Shown in pieces: positions 6,015-47,485 of a stretch of 64,000 bases of DNA. Source of the stretch: Caldicellulosiruptor diazotrophicus (GTDB lineage: Bacteria > Bacillota > Thermoanaerobacteria > Caldicellulosiruptorales > Caldicellulosiruptoraceae); assembly GCF_017347585.1 (NCBI RefSeq), contig NZ_AP024480.1, positions 1,014,001 through 1,078,000 of the forward strand, in the 5' to 3' direction. Numbering within the stretch: the stretch's first letter is position 1; every line of letters starts with the position of its first letter. The notes under the pieces are model-generated. The model searched no databases and was not told the origin of the DNA. It saw only the letters and a program-made list of their open reading frames with translations. A program made the position numbers and the translations under genes.

Positions 6015-7163
6015 ATGAATGTGTACTTTGACAACGCTGCAACCACAAGGCCCTTTGATGAGGTAATTGAGCAGCTTTCAAAGTTTTTGCTAGATACCTA
6101 TGGCAATCCTTCATCGCTTCACAGACTTGGTGTTGAGGCCGAAAGAAGACTGAAAGAGGCAAAAGAAATTATTGCAAAAAAACTTGGAAGTAGCAGCGAT
6201 GAGATTTATTTTACATCTGGTGGAACAGAAGCAAACAATTTAGCACTTATTGGCTGTGCATTTGCACATCAGAAAAGAGGAAAAAGGATTGTATCAACAC
6301 TTGTTGAACATCCTTCTGTTATTTCTACACTTGAGTATTTAGAAAGAAATGGATTTGAGATACAATATGTACCTGTGGATGCTGAAGGAAATTTAGATTT
6401 TGAGCAGTTTGAGAAGCTTGTAGACCAGAATACCATTCTGGTAAGTGTGATGCTTGTCAACAACGAGACAGGGCATATATTTGACGTGAAGAAACTATCT
6501 GAAATTGCGAAAAAGAAAAATCCAAATGTTATTGTTCACACAGATGCTGTTCAGGCTTTTATGAAAGAAAAGACCAATGTTAAAGAATTGAATGTCGACC
6601 TTATGTCGATAAGTGGTCATAAAATACACGCATTAAAAGGAATAGGAGCTTTGTATATTAGAAAGGGTATAAACATCCAGCCGATAATCTTTGGAGGACA
6701 GCAGCAAAAAGGTATAAGACCTGGAACGGAGAATATGCCAGGAATTTTTTCGTTTGCTAAAGCAATTGAGGTGTATGAAAAGCTAAAAGCTTCTGAACCT
6801 GATAAGCTGAGGAATATAAAACGAAGATTTATTGAAGGGCTTTTGAGCTTAGATAGCGTTGTGATAAACTCTCCTTTAGGTAAGACATCCGATGCGATAT
6901 TAAATGTGTCTTTTTTGGGCGTAAAATCTGAAGTTTTTCTTCACACACTTGAAAGTTATGGTATATTTGCATCTTCTGGGTCTGCCTGCTCGTCAAAAGG
7001 CAGAACTTACAACAAGGTTTTGCACAGCATGGGAAAAAGGATGGAAATTGCAGAAAGCAGTATACGTTTTTCGTTTTCTTACCTCAATCAAATTGGAGAG
7101 GTTGACTATGCACTTGAGTGCATTGAAAAAGCGCTACGATTTTTGAGAAAAATAAAAAAGTAA
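6015..7163 (+). CDS. Cysteine desulfurase, NifS/IscS family, partner of ThiI
   Basis: PLP enzyme that takes sulfur from cysteine as a persulfide. The 382-residue protein shows the N-terminal VYFDNAATTRPF, the PLP-lysine segment SGHKIHALKGIGALY and the catalytic cysteine loop SSGSACSSKGR. An upstream in-frame ATG (5979) lies inside rsmE; the ATG at 6015 follows GAAGGGAAG and begins the conserved fold, so it is preferred. thiI begins within about 15 bp downstream. That pairing matches the dedicated NifZ-ThiI desulfurase couple for 4-thiouridine in Bacillus; the specific role is inferred from the pairing. Confidence 0.93.
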   Translation: MNVYFDNAATTRPFDEVIEQLSKFLLDTYGNPSSLHRLGVEAERRLKEAKEIIAKKLGSSSDEIYFTSGGTEANNLALIGCAFAHQKRGKRIVSTLVEHPSVISTLEYLERNGFEIQYVPVDAEGNLDFEQFEKLVDQNTILVSVMLVNNETGHIFDVKKLSEIAKKKNPNVIVHTDAVQAFMKEKTNVKELNVDLMSISGHKIHALKGIGALYIRKGINIQPIIFGGQQQKGIRPGTENMPGIFSFAKAIEVYEKLKASEPDKLRNIKRRFIEGLLSLDSVVINSPLGKTSDAILNVSFLGVKSEVFLHTLESYGIFASSGSACSSKGRTYNKVLHSMGKRMEIAESSIRFSFSYLNQIGEVDYALECIEKALRFLRKIKK

Positions 7164-10685: not shown

Positions 10686-11612
10686 TCAAACTCTTTCAAG
10701 ACATACAAAAATCATTATAGCCTTGTGAGCATGAAGTCTATTTTCTGCCTCATCAAATACCCTCGATTGCGGACCGTCTATAACCTCTGAGGTTACTTCA
10801 AACCCTCTGTATGCTGGAAGACAATGCAAGAATATCGCATCATCCTTTGCTAATTTCATAAGAGAGCTGTCTACCTGATATCCTTCAAAATCCCTTATTC
10901 TTTTTTCCTTTTCTTCTTCTTGCCCCATCGAAACCCATGTGTCTGTATAGACAACATCAGCGTCTTTTACAGCCTCTTTTGGACTATTAGTAAAGATGAC
11001 ATTACTTTTGCTCTTTTTTGCCTCATCAAGTGCAAAATCTACAACCTCTTTCTTTATTTCATAGCCGGGTGGAGTTGCAATTGCAATGTCAAGACCAAGT
11101 TTTGCTGCGCCTACCAAAAGTGTGGCTGCTACATTGTTGCCGTCTCCCACATATGCTATCTTTATATTACTGAGCCTTCCTTTTTCCTCAAAAATTGTCT
11201 GAAAATCAGCTATGATTTGGGTTGGATGATAATCATCAGTAAGACCATTTATAACTGGGATGGAAGAGTATTTTGCAAATTCTTCGACCTCTTTTTGTTC
11301 ATATGTTCTTATCACAATTAGGTCAAGGTATCGCGATAAAACCTTTGCTGTATCTTCTATTGTTTCACCTCTGCCAAGCTGAAGGTCATTTTTCCCAAGA
11401 TAGAGTGAATATCCGCCAAGCTGATGGATTCCCACTTCAAATGATACACGTGTCCTTGTTGAAGCCTTTGTAAATATAAGTCCTAGCGCTTTGTTCTTTA
11501 AATAGGGAAAGTAAAGACCTTTTTTAGCTTCTTTTTTGAGTCTGCTTGCGAGCTCAACCAAATACATAATATCTTCTTTTGAAAGGTCATTTAGATGTAG
11601 GAAATGTTTCAT
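10686..11612 (-). CDS. argF: Ornithine carbamoyltransferase
   Basis: Forms citrulline from ornithine and carbamoyl phosphate. The 308-residue protein has the carbamoyl-phosphate motif STRTRVSFE. The ornithine-specific motifs [11 protein letters not shown] and [15 protein letters not shown] separate it from aspartate transcarbamylase. The ATG lies inside the 3' end of carB (26-bp overlap) behind AAAGGATG, so translation is probably coupled. It is last in carA-carB-argF, which implies that this carbamoyl-phosphate synthetase serves arginine synthesis. An ArgR-type box upstream of carA supports this. Confidence 0.96.
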
Positions 11613-39492: not shown

Positions 39493-39521
39493 TTGACAAA
39501 AACAAATGAAATCATTAAAAT
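39493..39521 (+). promoter_or_regulatory. Original host promoter of tRNA-Leu(UAA), now reading into the element
   Basis: TTGACA (39493-39498), 17 bp, TAAAAT (39516-39521). The -10 is inside the 60-bp duplicated block. After integration this promoter reads through the tRNA 5' half into the integrase gene, and I see no terminator before 39754. Confidence 0.7.
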
Positions 39522-39573
39522 ATATAATTGCGATGCCGGAGTGGCGGAACTGGCAGACGCACAGGACTTAAAA
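39514..39573 (+). repeat. Left attachment-site repeat (60 bp)
   Basis: Identical for 60 bp to 47375-47434. The block spans the -10 promoter element and the tRNA-Leu(UAA) 5' half up to the last base of the anticodon loop. It marks the left end of the integrated element; the crossover lies somewhere in the block. Confidence 0.9.
39535..39573 (+). pseudogene. 5' half of tRNA-Leu(UAA), severed by the element
   Basis: Matches bases 1-39 of the complete tRNA-Leu(UAA) at 47396 through the anticodon loop CTTAAAA, then diverges (CTACCAAAT...). The 3' half, including the variable arm, T-arm and acceptor strand, is missing here, so this copy cannot form a tRNA. It is a relic of integration. Confidence 0.92.
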
Positions 39574-39753
39574 CTACCAAATATGGATGTAATTAGAAAC
39601 TAAGAATTATCAAGGCTTTGAACATTTTAAATTTACACAATTGAGTAAAAAGGTCTGTTATGGTCATGAAATAAAAACAGGAGAACAAAGTATTATCCAA
39701 ACGCAGCCACCAAACACCAAAAGAATAAAAGTAGGTGTGAGGTGGTTTTTATT

Positions 39754-40713
39754 ATGCCTAAACAACTCAAAGTCAACAATTCAAATTCAGATTGGGAAGA
39801 CGCATTACAGCTTTTCTTATCTTACAAAAAAGCACAAGGTAGAAGTGATTTAACGATTAGGGACTATGAACGTCACATCAGTTCATTTTTTAGACGTTAC
39901 CCAGATTGCTTTAATGACACAGAGAAGTTAAGAAAGTGTTTGATTGAGTATTTATCGCAACCAATGAAACCAGTGACTTACAATCTAAGAATGAAAAACT
40001 TGAAAGCCTTTTTAAATTGGTGTGTTGAAGAAGGGATTATTCCGTCAAATCCCATTGCTAAATTCAAGCCAAGAAAGACAGATGACAGAATTGTTGAAAT
40101 TGACATTGAAACACTTCAAAAGCTACTCCAGTTACCAAACAGAAAAACATTTGCTGGTTTACGTGATTATGCATTGATGTTATTGACACTTGACACAGGA
40201 ATAAGACCGAAAGAAGCCTTTTCTTTGCTAAAAGACCATTTTGATTTTAAGAATTTGCAGGTTGTAATTCCTTCAGATGTAGCAAAGACAAGAGTATCAA
40301 GAGTGTTGCCAATCTCACCAGTAACAGCAAACGCAATTAAAAAACTCATATCTTCAAGACATCCCAAATGGGATGACAGCGTTCCTGTATTTTGTTCAGT
40401 ATCAGGAAAGCCTTTAAACAGGTATAGATGGAATGAAAGAATGAGAGAGTATAGTAAACAATTAGGTGTGAAAATAAGACCATATGATTTAAGGCATATG
40501 TTTGCTTTGCTGTATCTCAAAAATGGTGGTTATGAATTGAGTTTGCAAAAGATAATGGGACATACAACATTGGAAATGACAAAAAAGTACGTCCACTTTA
40601 CCCAGAAAGACCTACAAGAAATTCATGCTAAGGCAACACCGATTAACACTTTGCTAAAACAACCCTTAAACAGGGTTGGAAATATAAAAAATCAAAATAA
40701 AAAGAAGGAGTGA
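39754..40713 (+). CDS. Tyrosine recombinase / integrase
   Basis: Catalyses element integration and excision. The ~319-residue protein has an N-terminal SAM-like core-binding domain (about 15-105) and a catalytic domain. Catalytic residues are visible as Arg in TLDTGIRPKEAF, Arg in PYDLRHMFAL, His in IMGHTTLEMTKKY and the Tyr of KKYVHF. The first His of the usual HxxR box is Tyr here (YDLR). GAGGTGG with 9-base spacing selects ATG 39754; a GTG at 39742 overlaps that site. The gene reads away from the left attachment site, and its stop overlaps the next gene's Shine-Dalgarno. Confidence 0.93.
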   Translation: MPKQLKVNNSNSDWEDALQLFLSYKKAQGRSDLTIRDYERHISSFFRRYPDCFNDTEKLRKCLIEYLSQPMKPVTYNLRMKNLKAFLNWCVEEGIIPSNPIAKFKPRKTDDRIVEIDIETLQKLLQLPNRKTFAGLRDYALMLLTLDTGIRPKEAFSLLKDHFDFKNLQVVIPSDVAKTRVSRVLPISPVTANAIKKLISSRHPKWDDSVPVFCSVSGKPLNRYRWNERMREYSKQLGVKIRPYDLRHMFALLYLKNGGYELSLQKIMGHTTLEMTKKYVHFTQKDLQEIHAKATPINTLLKQPLNRVGNIKNQNKKKE

Positions 40714-41454: not shown

Positions 41455-41667
41455 ATGACGAAATTAGAGTATTTGAAGAAACAGCATAATTTATCATCAG
41501 CAAAGCTATCTTTGGCAGCTGGTATCAATTACACTTTGTTGACTTCAATTGAAAGAGGGGAAAGAAAAGCTTATCCAAAGGTAAAAAAGAGATTGGCTAA
41601 ATTTTTCAATGTGCCAGAAGATGAGTTGTTCAATGAAGATGGGTCTTTAAAAGAGATTGAGGATTAA
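41455..41667 (+). CDS. XRE/Cro-CI family helix-turn-helix regulator
   Basis: A 70-residue single-domain DNA-binding protein: TKLEYLKKQHNLSSAKLSLAAGIN, with the recognition-helix region YTLLTSIERGERKAYPK and an acidic tail. AAAGGAG lies before the ATG. Its size fits a Cro/CI-like or plasmid copy-control regulator. It follows a leader with a terminator and precedes the 12-bp repeats and the excisionase-like gene. Confidence 0.88.
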   Translation: MTKLEYLKKQHNLSSAKLSLAAGINYTLLTSIERGERKAYPKVKKRLAKFFNVPEDELFNEDGSLKEIED

Positions 41668-41962
41668 TCTTTTTTTCAAGTAACAATTGTGCAAAATCAC
41701 GATTTTTAGAGGCAATTTATAGTTTTTAGAGGAAAAATTTTGAATCTGCATTTAATAAATGCAGTGTTTTAAGGGTGTAAGGCAATTATGCAAAACTAAG
41801 TAACAGCAAAAGTAACAACAAAAGTAATAGATAACAAAAACATAAACTTTGATACACAAATTTGATATAATATATTATGTGAGAAACAAAAAGGTAACAC
41901 AATATATTGGACAGAAAACAAGTTTGTTATATTGAAAAAAACAAAAATTGGGGGGTTATAAA
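41668..41962 (+). other. Regulatory gap between the XRE and excisionase-like genes
   Basis: No gene is seen. The gap contains three 12-bp tandem repeats (41797-41832) and a promoter candidate, TTGATA (41849-41854) and TATTAT (41873-41878) with 18-bp spacing, directed at the gene at 41963. Confidence 0.5.
41797..41832 (+). repeat. Three tandem 12-bp repeats (iteron-like)
   Basis: TAAGTAACAGCA, AAAGTAACAACA and AAAGTAATAGAT in exact 12-bp register. They lie just upstream of the excisionase-like gene promoter and could bind the XRE or excisionase-like protein or the replication protein. Confidence 0.6.
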
Positions 41963-42142
41963 ATGAATGATTATGAAAAGTTAACCTATACTCCAAAAGA
42001 GACGGCACAGGTATTGGGACTGAGTTTGACGACAGTTTTCAGACTTATCAAGAACAAAGAGATACCTGTAATCAGGGTCGGTAGGAAAGTTTTGATTCCT
42101 AAGGATAAGCTTAAAGAGTGGATAGACAAAGTAACACAATAA
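41963..42142 (+). CDS. Excisionase-family (MerR-like) HTH protein
   Basis: A 59-residue winged-helix protein: YTPKETAQVLGLSLTTVFRLIKN, then IPVIRVGRKVLIPKDKLKEWID. This is the standard DNA-binding/excisionase family pattern. GGGGGG precedes ATG 41963; the in-frame codons upstream lie within that site. In integrative elements such proteins bend DNA for excision or regulate replication. The exact role is inferred. Confidence 0.88.
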   Translation: MNDYEKLTYTPKETAQVLGLSLTTVFRLIKNKEIPVIRVGRKVLIPKDKLKEWIDKVTQ

Positions 42143-42372: not shown

Positions 42373-44244
42373 ATGGATATTTTAAAAACTAATACATCTA
42401 ATCTACAGTCTTTGGAAAGTGAAGAAGCAGTCATTGGTGCTATGCTTCTTAGTAAAGAAGCAATATCAGAGGTTGCAGAGATCTTAAGAGAAGAAGATTT
42501 TGCAACTCCAGAGCTAAAAGAAGTTTTTTCTGCTATCATGGACCTTTTTAAAGAAGGCAAGCCCATAGATGTTATAACAGTTTCAGAACGGCTAAGGGAA
42601 AGAGGAAGCTATGATGTTGTAGGTGGGAGTGAATATCTAACTAACCTTATTATAAACACTCCCACAACAGCAAATGTTATGTATTATGCAAAGATAGTTA
42701 AAGAAAAATCTATACAGCGCAAAATGATAAAAAAAGGTGAGCTGCTTTTGAAAGATTTACAAGAAGGGAATCTTGAACAAGCAAAGCAGCTTTTGAAAGA
42801 TATGGAGGCAATAACAAATGAAGCATTTCAAGTTAAAGAAGAAGCGGGATTAATTTTGACGTCTGCTTCAGAACTTTTACAAAAAGACTTAACACCTGTA
42901 GATTTTTTGATAGGCGAGATAATACCACGTGAAGGGATCACGATTATTGCAGGCAACGAAAAAATAGGCAAAAGTTGGTTTGCTTTGCAACTTGCTTGTG
43001 CTCTTGCTACAGGTCAGGATTTTTTAGGTTTTTTGCCTAAAAAGAATTACAAGGTGCTATATTTAGCACTGGAAGACACAGAAAGACGTATAAAAGACAG
43101 ATTGTTGACATTAGGTTTTCCAGGAAGTGACAATCTGAAATTTATTACTAAGGATGACAAAAAAATTGAAGCATTAAACCTTGAACGGTTGGAGCATATC
43201 ATAAAGAAGAACAATATTGAAGTTGTATTTGTAGATACATTAAAAGTTTTTAAAGTAAAAATGAAAATTATTGAAAATTTAAGAAAGAATACTTATGAGC
43301 AAGACTATGAAGTAATCTTAGGTTTGCAGAATTTGTGCGTTGAAACAGGGGCGACATTGATATTATTGCATCATACCAAGAAAAGTGCTGTCGATGATTT
43401 TGTAGAAGGTGTGCTTGGTCGTGTGACAGCAGCAGTTGATACTATTTTACATCTACAAAGACAGCGTGGCGAGGTAGAGGCTTGTTTACGTATTACTGGA
43501 CGTGACGTAGAAGAACAGGAATTAGCTTTAAGATTTGAAAATAGTTTTTGGATACTATTGGGAACTGCAAAAGAACATAAATTATCAAAAGAAAGAAGGG
43601 AAATTCTAGAGGCTATCAGGGACTTAGGCGGTGCAGCAACACCAAAACAAGTAGCAGAATACTTAGGCAAGAACAGAACCACAACTAATAGATTGCTACT
43701 TAAAATGTCAAGCGCAGGTTTAATAAAATCTGTGAATGGTCTTTATGTGTTAGCTGAAAGCGAAGAGAGCGACAACAATTCTATGAATACAATGAACTCT
43801 GTGAAGAGCGTGAACTCTGTGAAGAGTGTGAAGAGTGTGAACTCTGTGAATCCCATAAGCTGGAATTCACACTTTTCTATTAACTTAGAGCCAAGTGTGA
43901 ACTCTGTAAAAGCCTTATCAGATGTGGATTTAAAGAATCAGAGTTCACAGAGTTCACAGAGTTCACACTTTTTAAACAGCACTAATGAGAATGTTGAGGC
44001 AATTAAGCAAAAAATAAGGAAAATAGAGATAAGTAAGACAGACCAAAAAATTATATTTTATACGACTGAGAAGGTAACAACGCAAGAAGTTGACACATTC
44101 TTTTCACATCAACAAATGCCCTGTTTGAAATGCAACACATTACTTGGATATACACCGGCTATTGGTGGGTATTATTGTAAAAATTGTAATGAAATTATTG
44201 CGGTAGAAGTGAAACACACCGAACCAGTATTAGCTTTTGTTTAG
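42373..44244 (+). CDS. Replication protein: DnaB-N domain + RecA-fold ATPase + winged helix + zinc ribbon
   Basis: A 623-residue protein. Residues 12-110 resemble the DnaB helicase N-terminal domain (ESEEAVIGAMLLSKEAISEV). Residues 175-395 are a RepA-type RecA-fold ATPase with Walker A IIAGNEKIGKSWFALQLA, Walker B VVFVDT and an LLHHTKKS sensor. Residues 405-460 look like a winged helix. About 468-494 is an S-V-N/S-V-K repeat encoded by 9-bp DNA repeats. The C-terminus has a CLKC...CKNC zinc ribbon. AAAGGAGG precedes the ATG. It is most likely the element's replication initiator/helicase; this is the signature gene of an autonomously replicating or integrative plasmid. Confidence 0.85.
   Translation: MDILKTNTSNLQSLESEEAVIGAMLLSKEAISEVAEILREEDFATPELKEVFSAIMDLFKEGKPIDVITVSERLRERGSYDVVGGSEYLTNLIINTPTTANVMYYAKIVKEKSIQRKMIKKGELLLKDLQEGNLEQAKQLLKDMEAITNEAFQVKEEAGLILTSASELLQKDLTPVDFLIGEIIPREGITIIAGNEKIGKSWFALQLACALATGQDFLGFLPKKNYKVLYLALEDTERRIKDRLLTLGFPGSDNLKFITKDDKKIEALNLERLEHIIKKNNIEVVFVDTLKVFKVKMKIIENLRKNTYEQDYEVILGLQNLCVETGATLILLHHTKKSAVDDFVEGVLGRVTAAVDTILHLQRQRGEVEACLRITGRDVEEQELALRFENSFWILLGTAKEHKLSKERREILEAIRDLGGAATPKQVAEYLGKNRTTTNRLLLKMSSAGLIKSVNGLYVLAESEESDNNSMNTMNSVKSVNSVKSVKSVNSVNPISWNSHFSINLEPSVNSVKALSDVDLKNQSSQSSQSSHFLNSTNENVEAIKQKIRKIEISKTDQKIIFYTTEKVTTQEVDTFFSHQQMPCLKCNTLLGYTPAIGGYYCKNCNEIIAVEVKHTEPVLAFV
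43783..43854 (+). repeat. Eight 9-bp iteron-like direct repeats inside the replication gene
   Basis: Units in exact 9-bp register: two variant units, then GTGAACTCT and GTGAAGAGY in alternation. Adjacent units form small CTCT-GTGA-AGAG hairpins. They encode the S-V-N/S-V-K peptide. Confidence 0.8.
43897..43966. repeat. Opposed copies of the 9-bp iteron
   Basis: One more GTGAACTCT (43897-43905) and three inverted copies AGAGTTCAC in tandem (43940-43966). Together with the direct array upstream they make a large dyad that could form a long hairpin. Confidence 0.75.
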
Positions 44245-44828: not shown

Positions 44829-45587
44829 CTTAGCCACTTTGTAGAATTGCATACCCTACCAGCTTGAAATGTGCTTAAAAACTGAATGTGGTAGGGGAAA
44901 TAAAGGCAGTAACAAAAGTAAAATCAAAAGTTGATATAAATTATCAAATAAAAACTTCAAAGTAAATTATAGCACAAATTAAGTTTTAAAACTTTAAATG
45001 TTCAAGCAGCATTTATATTCTAAAACAAGCAAAAGTAAAATAATGGAATTCAAGAATTTATTCATATTGTGAATGTCAATCTATTTGATTGGTTTACTTT
45101 AAATTTTACTAAATGGCTTGAAACTTGAAGGATGGCAATTAAAGACAAAAACAAATTGTCCACTATAAAAAAAGATAATCATGCACTAAACTTTGAATAA
45201 TTATGAAAATCAATTGCCAAAGAAAAATTTAGAATAAAAGCCTTAAATTAAGCAAACTAAAAATAAAAAGAAATTAAACTTGAACAAAGAATGTATACAA
45301 CTTAAAACAAGTATTTCTTATTCTAAACAGCAAATAAGATTTAAAGAATCACAGTTAAAATTTTAAAGCATGGACTTTATTTTGCATTGTTCTTTGTGGT
45401 CTAAATGTGGTTATGACTTATTTTATCCTGTCCACATCTTTTAAGTCAAATCTATTCTTTGGCTGCTAATTTTAGCTTGACAAATTAGTCATGAGATTTT
45501 TAAAAAATATCATACGAAAAAAACGAAAAAAGGGTAAAAAGTCGGTTGACATTGGAAATATCAAGGCTTTTAAGACATAGCCCTTTT

Positions 45588-45631
45588 ACGAAAAAAGTAC
45601 GAAAAAAGTACGAAAAAAGTACGAAAAAAGT
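45588..45631 (+). repeat. Four tandem 11-bp A-tract repeats
   Basis: ACGAAAAAAGT repeated four times without interruption, preceded at 45513-45530 by two looser copies. A6 tracts every 11 bp, about one helical turn, predict strongly curved DNA. Confidence 0.85.
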
Positions 45632-45737
45632 CCAAAGGCATGTCATTTCTATGTTTGTGGTAATTCTCATTGATTTTACAAAGTATATTCCCGATTTTAA
45701 GGCTGAAAATCTAAAGTGTATTTGGAATTGTCAAGAT

Positions 45738-45920
45738 TTTAAAATACAGCCCCATAGACAAACAAAAATTAACAGGGGGGGGGGTATAAAGATATTACCC
45801 TGTCAATTTTTGAAGCTTATAAAGGCTTCTAAAACAATTTTTCTTGTGAAATTGCTTTGTAATTTAGACATATCAAGGGTTTAAAACATATCCTGACAAA
45901 TCAAGCAATATCAAGGTTTT
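45738..45920 (+). repeat. ~245-bp repeat, unit 1
   Basis: Ordered blocks: TTTAAAATACAGCC, GTATAAAGATATTACCC, GCTTATAAAGGCTT, then TATCAAGGGTTT and TATCAAGGTTTT 38 bp apart. A ten-G run precedes the second block in this unit only. Confidence 0.75.
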
Positions 45921-45983
45921 GGAGTTATTTTGCTGTTATTAAATTTTCCTGTCTAAAAGCTTATCACTAATTGTTGTTGAAAA

Positions 45984-46162
45984 TTTAAAATACAGCCATG
46001 CAGAGAAGCAAAAATCTAAATGGTGGTATAAAGATATTACCCAGCTATTTTTTGTAGCTTATAAAGGCTTTATACACAAATCTTGCTATGAAAATAGCTT
46101 TCGTTGTAGATGTATCAAGGCTTTACTGTCAATCATTCTAAGCCAAGCAGTATCAAGACTTT
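45984..46162 (+). repeat. ~245-bp repeat, unit 2
   Basis: Same block order as unit 1. It begins TTTAAAATACAGCC, contains GTATAAAGATATTACCC and GCTTATAAAGGCTT, and ends with TATCAAGGCTTT and TATCAAGACTTT 38 bp apart. Confidence 0.75.
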
Positions 46163-46226
46163 GCAGTATTTTTGTTTTGTCTACCCTAAAAGGTTATCCC
46201 AAAGTTATTTAGTTCTTTGCTGGAGA

Positions 46227-46416
46227 TTTAAAATTTCAAAAACCATAGCGAACATATAGCGAACAAAGTTAAGGGTAGTATAAAAATATTACCCGTTGAA
46301 TTTTGAATCAAAAGAAACCGATTTCAAAGGATTTTGTTTGGAAAAATTGCCTTTGATATTAGAAGTATCAAGTAATAGAAGGCAATTTAATTCTAAACAA
46401 GCAATATCAAGACTTT
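46227..46416 (+). repeat. ~245-bp repeat, unit 3 (most diverged)
   Basis: Begins TTTAAAATTTC, has GTATAAAAATATTACCC, lacks a clear GCTTATAAAGGCTT block and ends with TATCAAGTAATA and TATCAAGACTTT 39 bp apart. Confidence 0.65.
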
Positions 46417-47353: not shown

Positions 47354-47382
47354 TTGACAATGCTTGAAAACCCTATTAAAAT
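47354..47382 (+). promoter_or_regulatory. Element-supplied promoter of tRNA-Leu(UAA) and the downstream tRNA cluster
   Basis: TTGACA (47354-47359), 17 bp, TAAAAT (47377-47382). The -35 is in element-specific sequence and the -10 in the att repeat. It replaces the host promoter left at 39493. Confidence 0.75.
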
Positions 47383-47434
47383 ATATAATTGCGATGCCGG
47401 AGTGGCGGAACTGGCAGACGCACAGGACTTAAAA
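47375..47434 (+). repeat. Right attachment-site repeat (60 bp)
   Basis: Identical to 39514-39573. Beyond it the sequence continues into the genuine 3' half of tRNA-Leu(UAA), so this is the element-host junction. Confidence 0.9.
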
Positions 47435-47485
47435 TCCTGGGACCTGAATAAGGTCGTACCGGTTCAAGTCCGGTTTCCGGCACCA
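47396..47485 (+). tRNA. tRNA-Leu (anticodon UAA), rebuilt by the integrated element
   Basis: A class II tRNA with acceptor GCCGGAG/TTCCGGC (one GU), anticodon arm CAGGA-CTTAAAA-TCCTG (TAA at 47430-47432), a long variable arm, T-arm GGTTCAAGTCC and CCA at 47483-47485. The 5' 39 bases are element-derived or shared; the 3' half is host. Confidence 0.97.

Follow-up and report, generated by a model that had tools for sequence, protein, structure and literature searches.

RSF1010 has an iteron origin, the helicase RepA and the iteron binder RepC being separate proteins. In other described systems the origin lies in or beside the gene of its initiator, including (i) SaPI Rep and SCCmec Cch2, helicases that carry a DNA-binding domain at the C-terminus and whose genes are immediately followed by iterons (PMC7581432); (ii) pSK41, of the RepA_N type, with an in-gene origin in the part coding for the linker after the winged-HTH domain, the linker peptide being dispensable (PMC5703833); and (iii) lambda, with origin iterons within the initiator gene O (PMC5043065). 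For proteins of PrimPol - RepA/DnaB - WH organization (PrimQH-type), found on integrated mobile elements, the WH was suggested to recognize the origin, and the text on these proteins makes no mention of iterons (PMC5862659). The literature searched, largely without subscription journals, yielded no description of the origins of the RecA-type helicase class considered here.

The window, i.e., the whole 64-kb stretch of Caldicellulosiruptor diazotrophicus DNA analyzed, encodes an initiator of this class whose linker codons contain an array of short direct and inverted repeats. Judged from sequence comparison, this array quite probably acts in cis as the replication origin of a 7.9-kb integrative plasmid-like element, or at any rate as the initiator-binding part of that origin.

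The initiator and its integrated element

The replication initiator gene (42373-44244, + strand) encodes a protein of 623 aa with the organization DnaB_N - AAA_25 (RecA-type helicase) - wHTH - linker - Zn-ribbon, as delineated by the ORF, Pfam, AlphaFold, and a Foldseek match to DnaB. The domains, all on the + strand, comprise (i) DnaB_N (aa 11-111; 42403-42705; PF00772, E=1e-34), which is ~67% identical to the N-terminus of the host DnaB encoded in the same genome; (ii) the AAA_25 RecA-type ATPase/helicase (aa 165-338; 42865-43386; PF13481, E=2e-26), with a weak match to the RSF1010 RepA helicase structures 1g8y/1nlf; (iii) the winged helix (aa ~399-464; 43567-43764; HTH_IclR match, pLDDT 86-98), proposed below as the reader of the iterons; and (iv) a C-terminal Zn-ribbon with four cysteines, CLKC ... 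CKNC, visible in the translation (44122-44187). Apart from the weakly matching RepA, sequence comparison with solved structures leads to DnaB helicases, and DnaB also provides the nearest folds in Foldseek. The initiator gave no Pfam match to the phage O initiator, RepA_N, or Rep_3 domains, and no DUF927 or D5/Primase_Cterm helicase domain was found, the helicase domain being AAA_25 with DnaB as nearest fold. AAA_25 is followed by the wHTH on a mobile element, as in PrimQH-type proteins, with DnaB_N at the N-terminus where no PrimPol is present. The closest protein is encoded by the autonomous 8291-bp plasmid NC_012036 of Caldicellulosiruptor bescii (here pATHE01), and displays a PrimPol in the place of DnaB_N.

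The gene serves as the replication module of an integrated 7.9-kb element, which occupies a tRNA-Leu site, encodes its own integrase, and is flanked by two direct copies of a 59-bp sequence from the 5′ part of tRNA-Leu(TAA). The attL copy (39515-39573) covers the tRNA 5′ part and promoter side, the attR copy (47376-47434) is joined to tRNA-Leu(TAA) at 47396-47485, and the empty site, with one copy of the repeat, occurs in three congeners (G007, G005, and G010). The element further encodes (i) the tyrosine recombinase (integrase; 39742-40713, + strand; PF00589, E=7e-28), (ii) a Cro/CI-type HTH regulator (41455-41667, + strand; HTH_19/HTH_3), and (iii) a small excisionase-like HTH_17 protein (41948-42142, + strand; PF12728, E=5e-14, with a PHROG excisionase match). 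The array-bearing gene is its only recognizable replication gene, and an Rfam search returned tRNAs only. In G011 and G004 the element ends are 88-98% identical and the initiator region is swapped for a TOPRIM/DnaB-type primase-helicase module, a function assigned from the translations; the initiator gene and its array thus behave as an exchangeable replication module.

Several further observations concern the element and its relatives. The two congeners with the TOPRIM/DnaB-type module have the same backbone at the same tRNA-Leu site (L191, L192), and stop-interrupted remnants of the initiator family occur in G008 and G005 (L014, L033, L035). The motif TATCAAG[GA].TTT is present seven times within the 7.9-kb element, always on the + strand (39608 and 45559-46405) and including two pairs exactly 38 bp apart, with just 2 more copies in the remainder of the 64 kb. 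A second repeat site (45524-45632) consists of one CGAAAAAAG, 65 bp, and then 3-4 tandem copies with TATCAAGG between them. This layout recurs in pATHE01 and in the elements of G010 and G004, of which that of G004 has another replication module, and G002 has a version with letters changed to GCTAAAAAAG; counterparts lie at L029 2957-3104, L031 4929-5024, L192 12615-12710, and L030 ~11200-11360. The second array is possibly a partition or second-origin site.

A repeat array in the linker codons

Within the initiator ORF, a left array of eight 9-bp units in register (43783-43854, + strand), every unit starting with RTGAA, reads in order ATGAATACA, ATGAACTCT, GTGAAGAGC, GTGAACTCT, GTGAAGAGT, GTGAAGAGT, GTGAACTCT, and GTGAATCCC. 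The preliminary description had assigned to all eight the consensus GTGAACTCT/GTGAAGAGY; the register is as described, but the consensus is exact only in the five units at 43801-43845, units 1 and 8 being degenerate. The one further direct copy and three inverted copies that it had counted were located, the former at 43897-43905 (single iteron GTGAACTCT, + strand) and the latter as a right array (43939-43967, - strand) of three AGAGTTCAC iterons at 43940, 43949, and 43958, again spaced by 9 bp. A partial inverted copy, TTCACAC (43866-43872, - strand), was absent from that list. No AT-enriched spacer was found in the window, a point against the origin reading given below.

The location of the array between the winged-helix and zinc-ribbon parts, also proposed earlier, is confirmed. 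In the AlphaFold model the wHTH is confident and the array-encoded linker (residues 465-535; pLDDT <50) is disordered. The encoded peptide had been characterized as an S-V-N/S-V-K run, and the left arm does read SVN/SVK; in the inverted right arm the QSSQSS pattern appears as QSSQSSQSSH; the same DNA in its two orientations hence encodes unrelated peptides.

The repeat array is real and far from chance. In a paired direct/inverted 8-mer scan of the 64 kb, the array reached 72/77 and the best other place 10/6, and none of 5000 synonymous shuffles attained direct = 68 or inverted = 75, the maxima being direct 31 and inverted 19 with gene-wide codon pools, and direct 53 and inverted 41 with the linker's own codon pool. 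The encoded peptide fails to explain the array because none of these recodings matches it even when the codon usage of the linker is kept.

Arrays at the same place in the homologues

The homologue set, drawn from genomes and viral contigs, comprises 136 proteins that fall into 102 clusters (60% identity). A search of the phage collection yielded weaker, partial relatives only. A coding tail of 150 bp or longer is present in 55 clusters; of these, 25 pass the synonymous-shuffle test for inverted repeats at p<=0.05, versus 2.8 expected, and 17 of the 55 stand at the floor of the test. The comparison of close relatives rests on the pairs G002/G010b and L123/L135, two further pairs being too similar or offering too few sites. 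In these two pairs the tail peptide changes at 58/146 positions (40%) versus 175/1053 (17%) elsewhere, and the fourfold-degenerate sites behave in the opposite manner, with 10/49 changed in the tail versus 185/405 elsewhere (Fisher p = 4e-4). The earlier proposal that DNA function drives the linker sequence therefore gains from both the shuffles (0/5000) and these two pairs, in which fourfold sites are conserved while the peptide diverges. It had been suggested to compare homologous linkers, a conserved peptide over synonymously drifting DNA counting against an origin; the opposite is seen, the peptide diverging and the fourfold sites changing more slowly, and opposed 9-bp repeats are kept while core and peptide differ, an outcome in favor of an origin.

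The position of the arrays is equally consistent. When the strongest repeat window (direct + inverted) of each locus is placed relative to the wHTH end (-50 to +500 bp), it falls near that end in 65 of the 100 testable clusters versus 9.0 expected, and in 37 of the 47 strong clusters versus 4.2 expected (13 in the gene and 24 downstream), the best window lying elsewhere in the other 10. A general preference of repeats for gene ends might, by our estimate, about double the expected numbers, which would still lie far below the observed counts. Relatives that end right after the wHTH have the same kind of array as non-coding DNA just downstream, and host DnaB loci, used as controls, have no arrays. 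More than 30 independent relatives carry differently spelled arrays in the same place, in the gene or just past its end.

The iteron cores differ between relatives, including GAGTGAA (pATHE01, with its array at about 6380-6560 of NC_012036), TGCAACA (G002 and G010b), GTTTCAA (G010a), and GCTAAT/GGTGCTA (G037), each occurring in both orientations and coding for different peptides on the two arms. The peptides, too, differ from that of the window initiator, e.g., SIH/SER (pATHE01), ATL/VAN (G002), and ETF/VSN (G010a). Same-strand spacing is 9 bp in 80/123 cases in coding and 96/168 in non-coding arrays; the spacing is found in both alike and is thus no codon effect. Recurrent group sizes are three iterons facing three, or six facing three.

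Two groups of relatives show other layouts. In a subgroup of ~770-800 aa (L156, L159, L161, L162) the strong array does not follow the wHTH but precedes the ORF, 130-440 bp upstream of its start as defined from stop to stop. Several gut-type AAA_25 relatives (L056, L057, L080, L082, L085, L086, L088), aligned without the full wHTH region, have GTGACG-N34-CGTCAC or its reverse close to where the gene ends, so that an inverted pair at fixed distance takes the place of a long array. A shared spacer element between opposed iterons, CAAG[GT]NTT, picked out by eye, was rejected (9/19 versus 68/195, not significant), and an unbiased search for shared 8-mers in the array regions returned chiefly TATATA-like words, which probably reflect intergenic base composition.

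Probable origin function, alternatives, and relation to known systems

Multiple short, element-specific repeats close to the initiator gene, the pattern of an iteron-type origin, are present here, and the preliminary description's candidate of this type inside the gene is supported at the sequence level by the homologue arrays, the conserved fourfold sites, and the non-coding counterparts. Iteron similarity follows wHTH identity (Mantel r = 0.24, p = 0.0002), and the association persists when the ATPase domain is taken into account (p = 0.001), whereas the ATPase domain has little to contribute beyond the wHTH (p = 0.055); this correlation, although modest, points to the wHTH as the likely reader of the iterons. 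The wHTH encoded immediately upstream would bind each ~9-bp iteron, and several subunits on the opposed iteron groups may form helicase rings at the origin with no need for a distinct iteron-binding protein, ring assembly being proposed because the initiator is by fold a hexameric helicase of DnaB/RepA type. Melting of the origin would follow, and the DnaB-like N-terminal domain could recruit the host DnaG primase, a role that the fused PrimPol may play in relatives such as pATHE01. The linker peptide would be a tolerated by-product of a frame that crosses the origin to reach the Zn-ribbon. Lying beside the codons of their presumed reader, the iterons would be inherited and changed together with it, setting replicon specificity. 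A much broader proposal, to which we incline less than to its contrary, is that a whole class of RecA-fold (DnaB/RepA-type) helicases might be self-recruiting initiators, in which opposed iterons after their own wHTH codons seat two rings head to head without a separate binder or loader, the priming end is interchangeable (a fused PrimPol, or a DnaB-like N-terminus borrowing the host primase), and iteron and wHTH form a co-changing specificity cassette.

It is unlikely, but deserves weight, that the element's wHTH binds the array for copy-number control or incompatibility, autoregulation, or partition, and that replication starts elsewhere, e.g., at 45.5 kb. The second array (CGAAAAAAG, 45524-45632) is shared by pATHE01 and other elements, and iterons can serve copy control too (PMC5043065); yet that array is retained in the G004 element despite a different replication module and is consequently not tied to this initiator, whereas arrays of the in-gene kind go with the wHTH gene across very diverse elements. 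The location of the array in the last part of the gene, a long way from the promoter, also speaks against a non-origin role, and no partition gene was recognized among the element ORFs scanned.

The remaining readings concern the repeats themselves. That the opposed arms act as a stem-loop in ssDNA or RNA, in a pRN1-like origin or an mRNA control hairpin, rather than as dsDNA iterons, is very improbable: the array strand does fold far better than shuffles (z = -4.8), and a stem-loop downstream of the pRN1 initiator gene is required for replication (PMC4234260), but good folding is the automatic outcome of inverted copies, and the arms carry unequal copy numbers in tandem at 9 bp. Moreover, agreement of the spacers between cores is no higher from one arm to the opposed one (0.54) than inside a single arm (0.57), the values in pATHE01 being 0.25 versus 0.95; pairing is thus not preserved outside the repeated core, and a stem-loop is disfavored. 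Least credible of all is a low-complexity linker born of replication slippage and devoid of DNA function. The left arms do consist of in-frame tandem units that code for a disordered segment, and the relative L153 carries an extended VAP/VAS repeat with a direct but no inverted excess, as expected from slippage; slippage, however, does not produce inverted copies, the peptide changes over conserved synonymous sites, and homologous arrays are non-coding where the gene stops early. As the sole cause, slippage or a low-complexity peptide is rejected in view of the shuffles, the fourfold sites, and the non-coding arrays.

Reading the array as an origin places that of a large, mostly uncharacterized initiator family, which spans plasmids, phage-like and integrative elements in several phyla, to within a predicted few hundred bp, and suggests a rule for origin finding: to search just past the wHTH codons, whether the frame has ended or not. 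The suggested origin-recognition role of C-terminal winged helices would become directly testable, the family offers a natural experiment on the joint evolution of an initiator with its sites, and the elements are candidates for minimal replicons on which vectors for thermophilic Caldicellulosiruptor could be built.

Compared with the described systems, the locus is best read as an initiator helicase with the origin attached to its own wHTH codons, working in the manner of SaPI Rep or lambda O and a member of neither family. Lambda O, the precedent named in the preliminary description, is apt for the location of the iterons, but O is not a helicase, and its dimers bind 19-bp inverted-repeat iterons with an adjacent AT-rich region; SaPI Rep/Cch2 are closer in mechanism, and pSK41 RepA_N in its dispensable coding linker. 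The self-loading initiator helicases of SaPI Rep-ori and SCCmec Cch2 are similar in having a C-terminal DNA-binding domain and iterons after the helicase codons on a mobile element (PMC7581432), and here too the iterons directly follow the codons of the DNA-binding domain; their helicases are of DUF927 or D5/Primase_Cterm type (PMC7581432), whereas the present one has a RecA fold, DnaB/RepA-like, and its frame continues through the array to the Zn-ribbon. The pSK41 origin likewise lies within the initiator gene, in the linker codons following a winged-HTH, although pSK41 Rep is small, without a helicase domain and with its DNA-binding domain N-terminal, and no homology to the window initiator was found. 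PrimQH-type proteins have the same domain order except at the N-terminus, where the window protein carries DnaB_N and not PrimPol. RSF1010 shares the RecA-type helicase family (the 1g8y/1nlf match) and an iteron origin, but helicase and binder appear fused here. What appears to be new is an origin rule for the RecA-type helicase class, embracing coding and non-coding positions of the array and its apparent change together with the wHTH.
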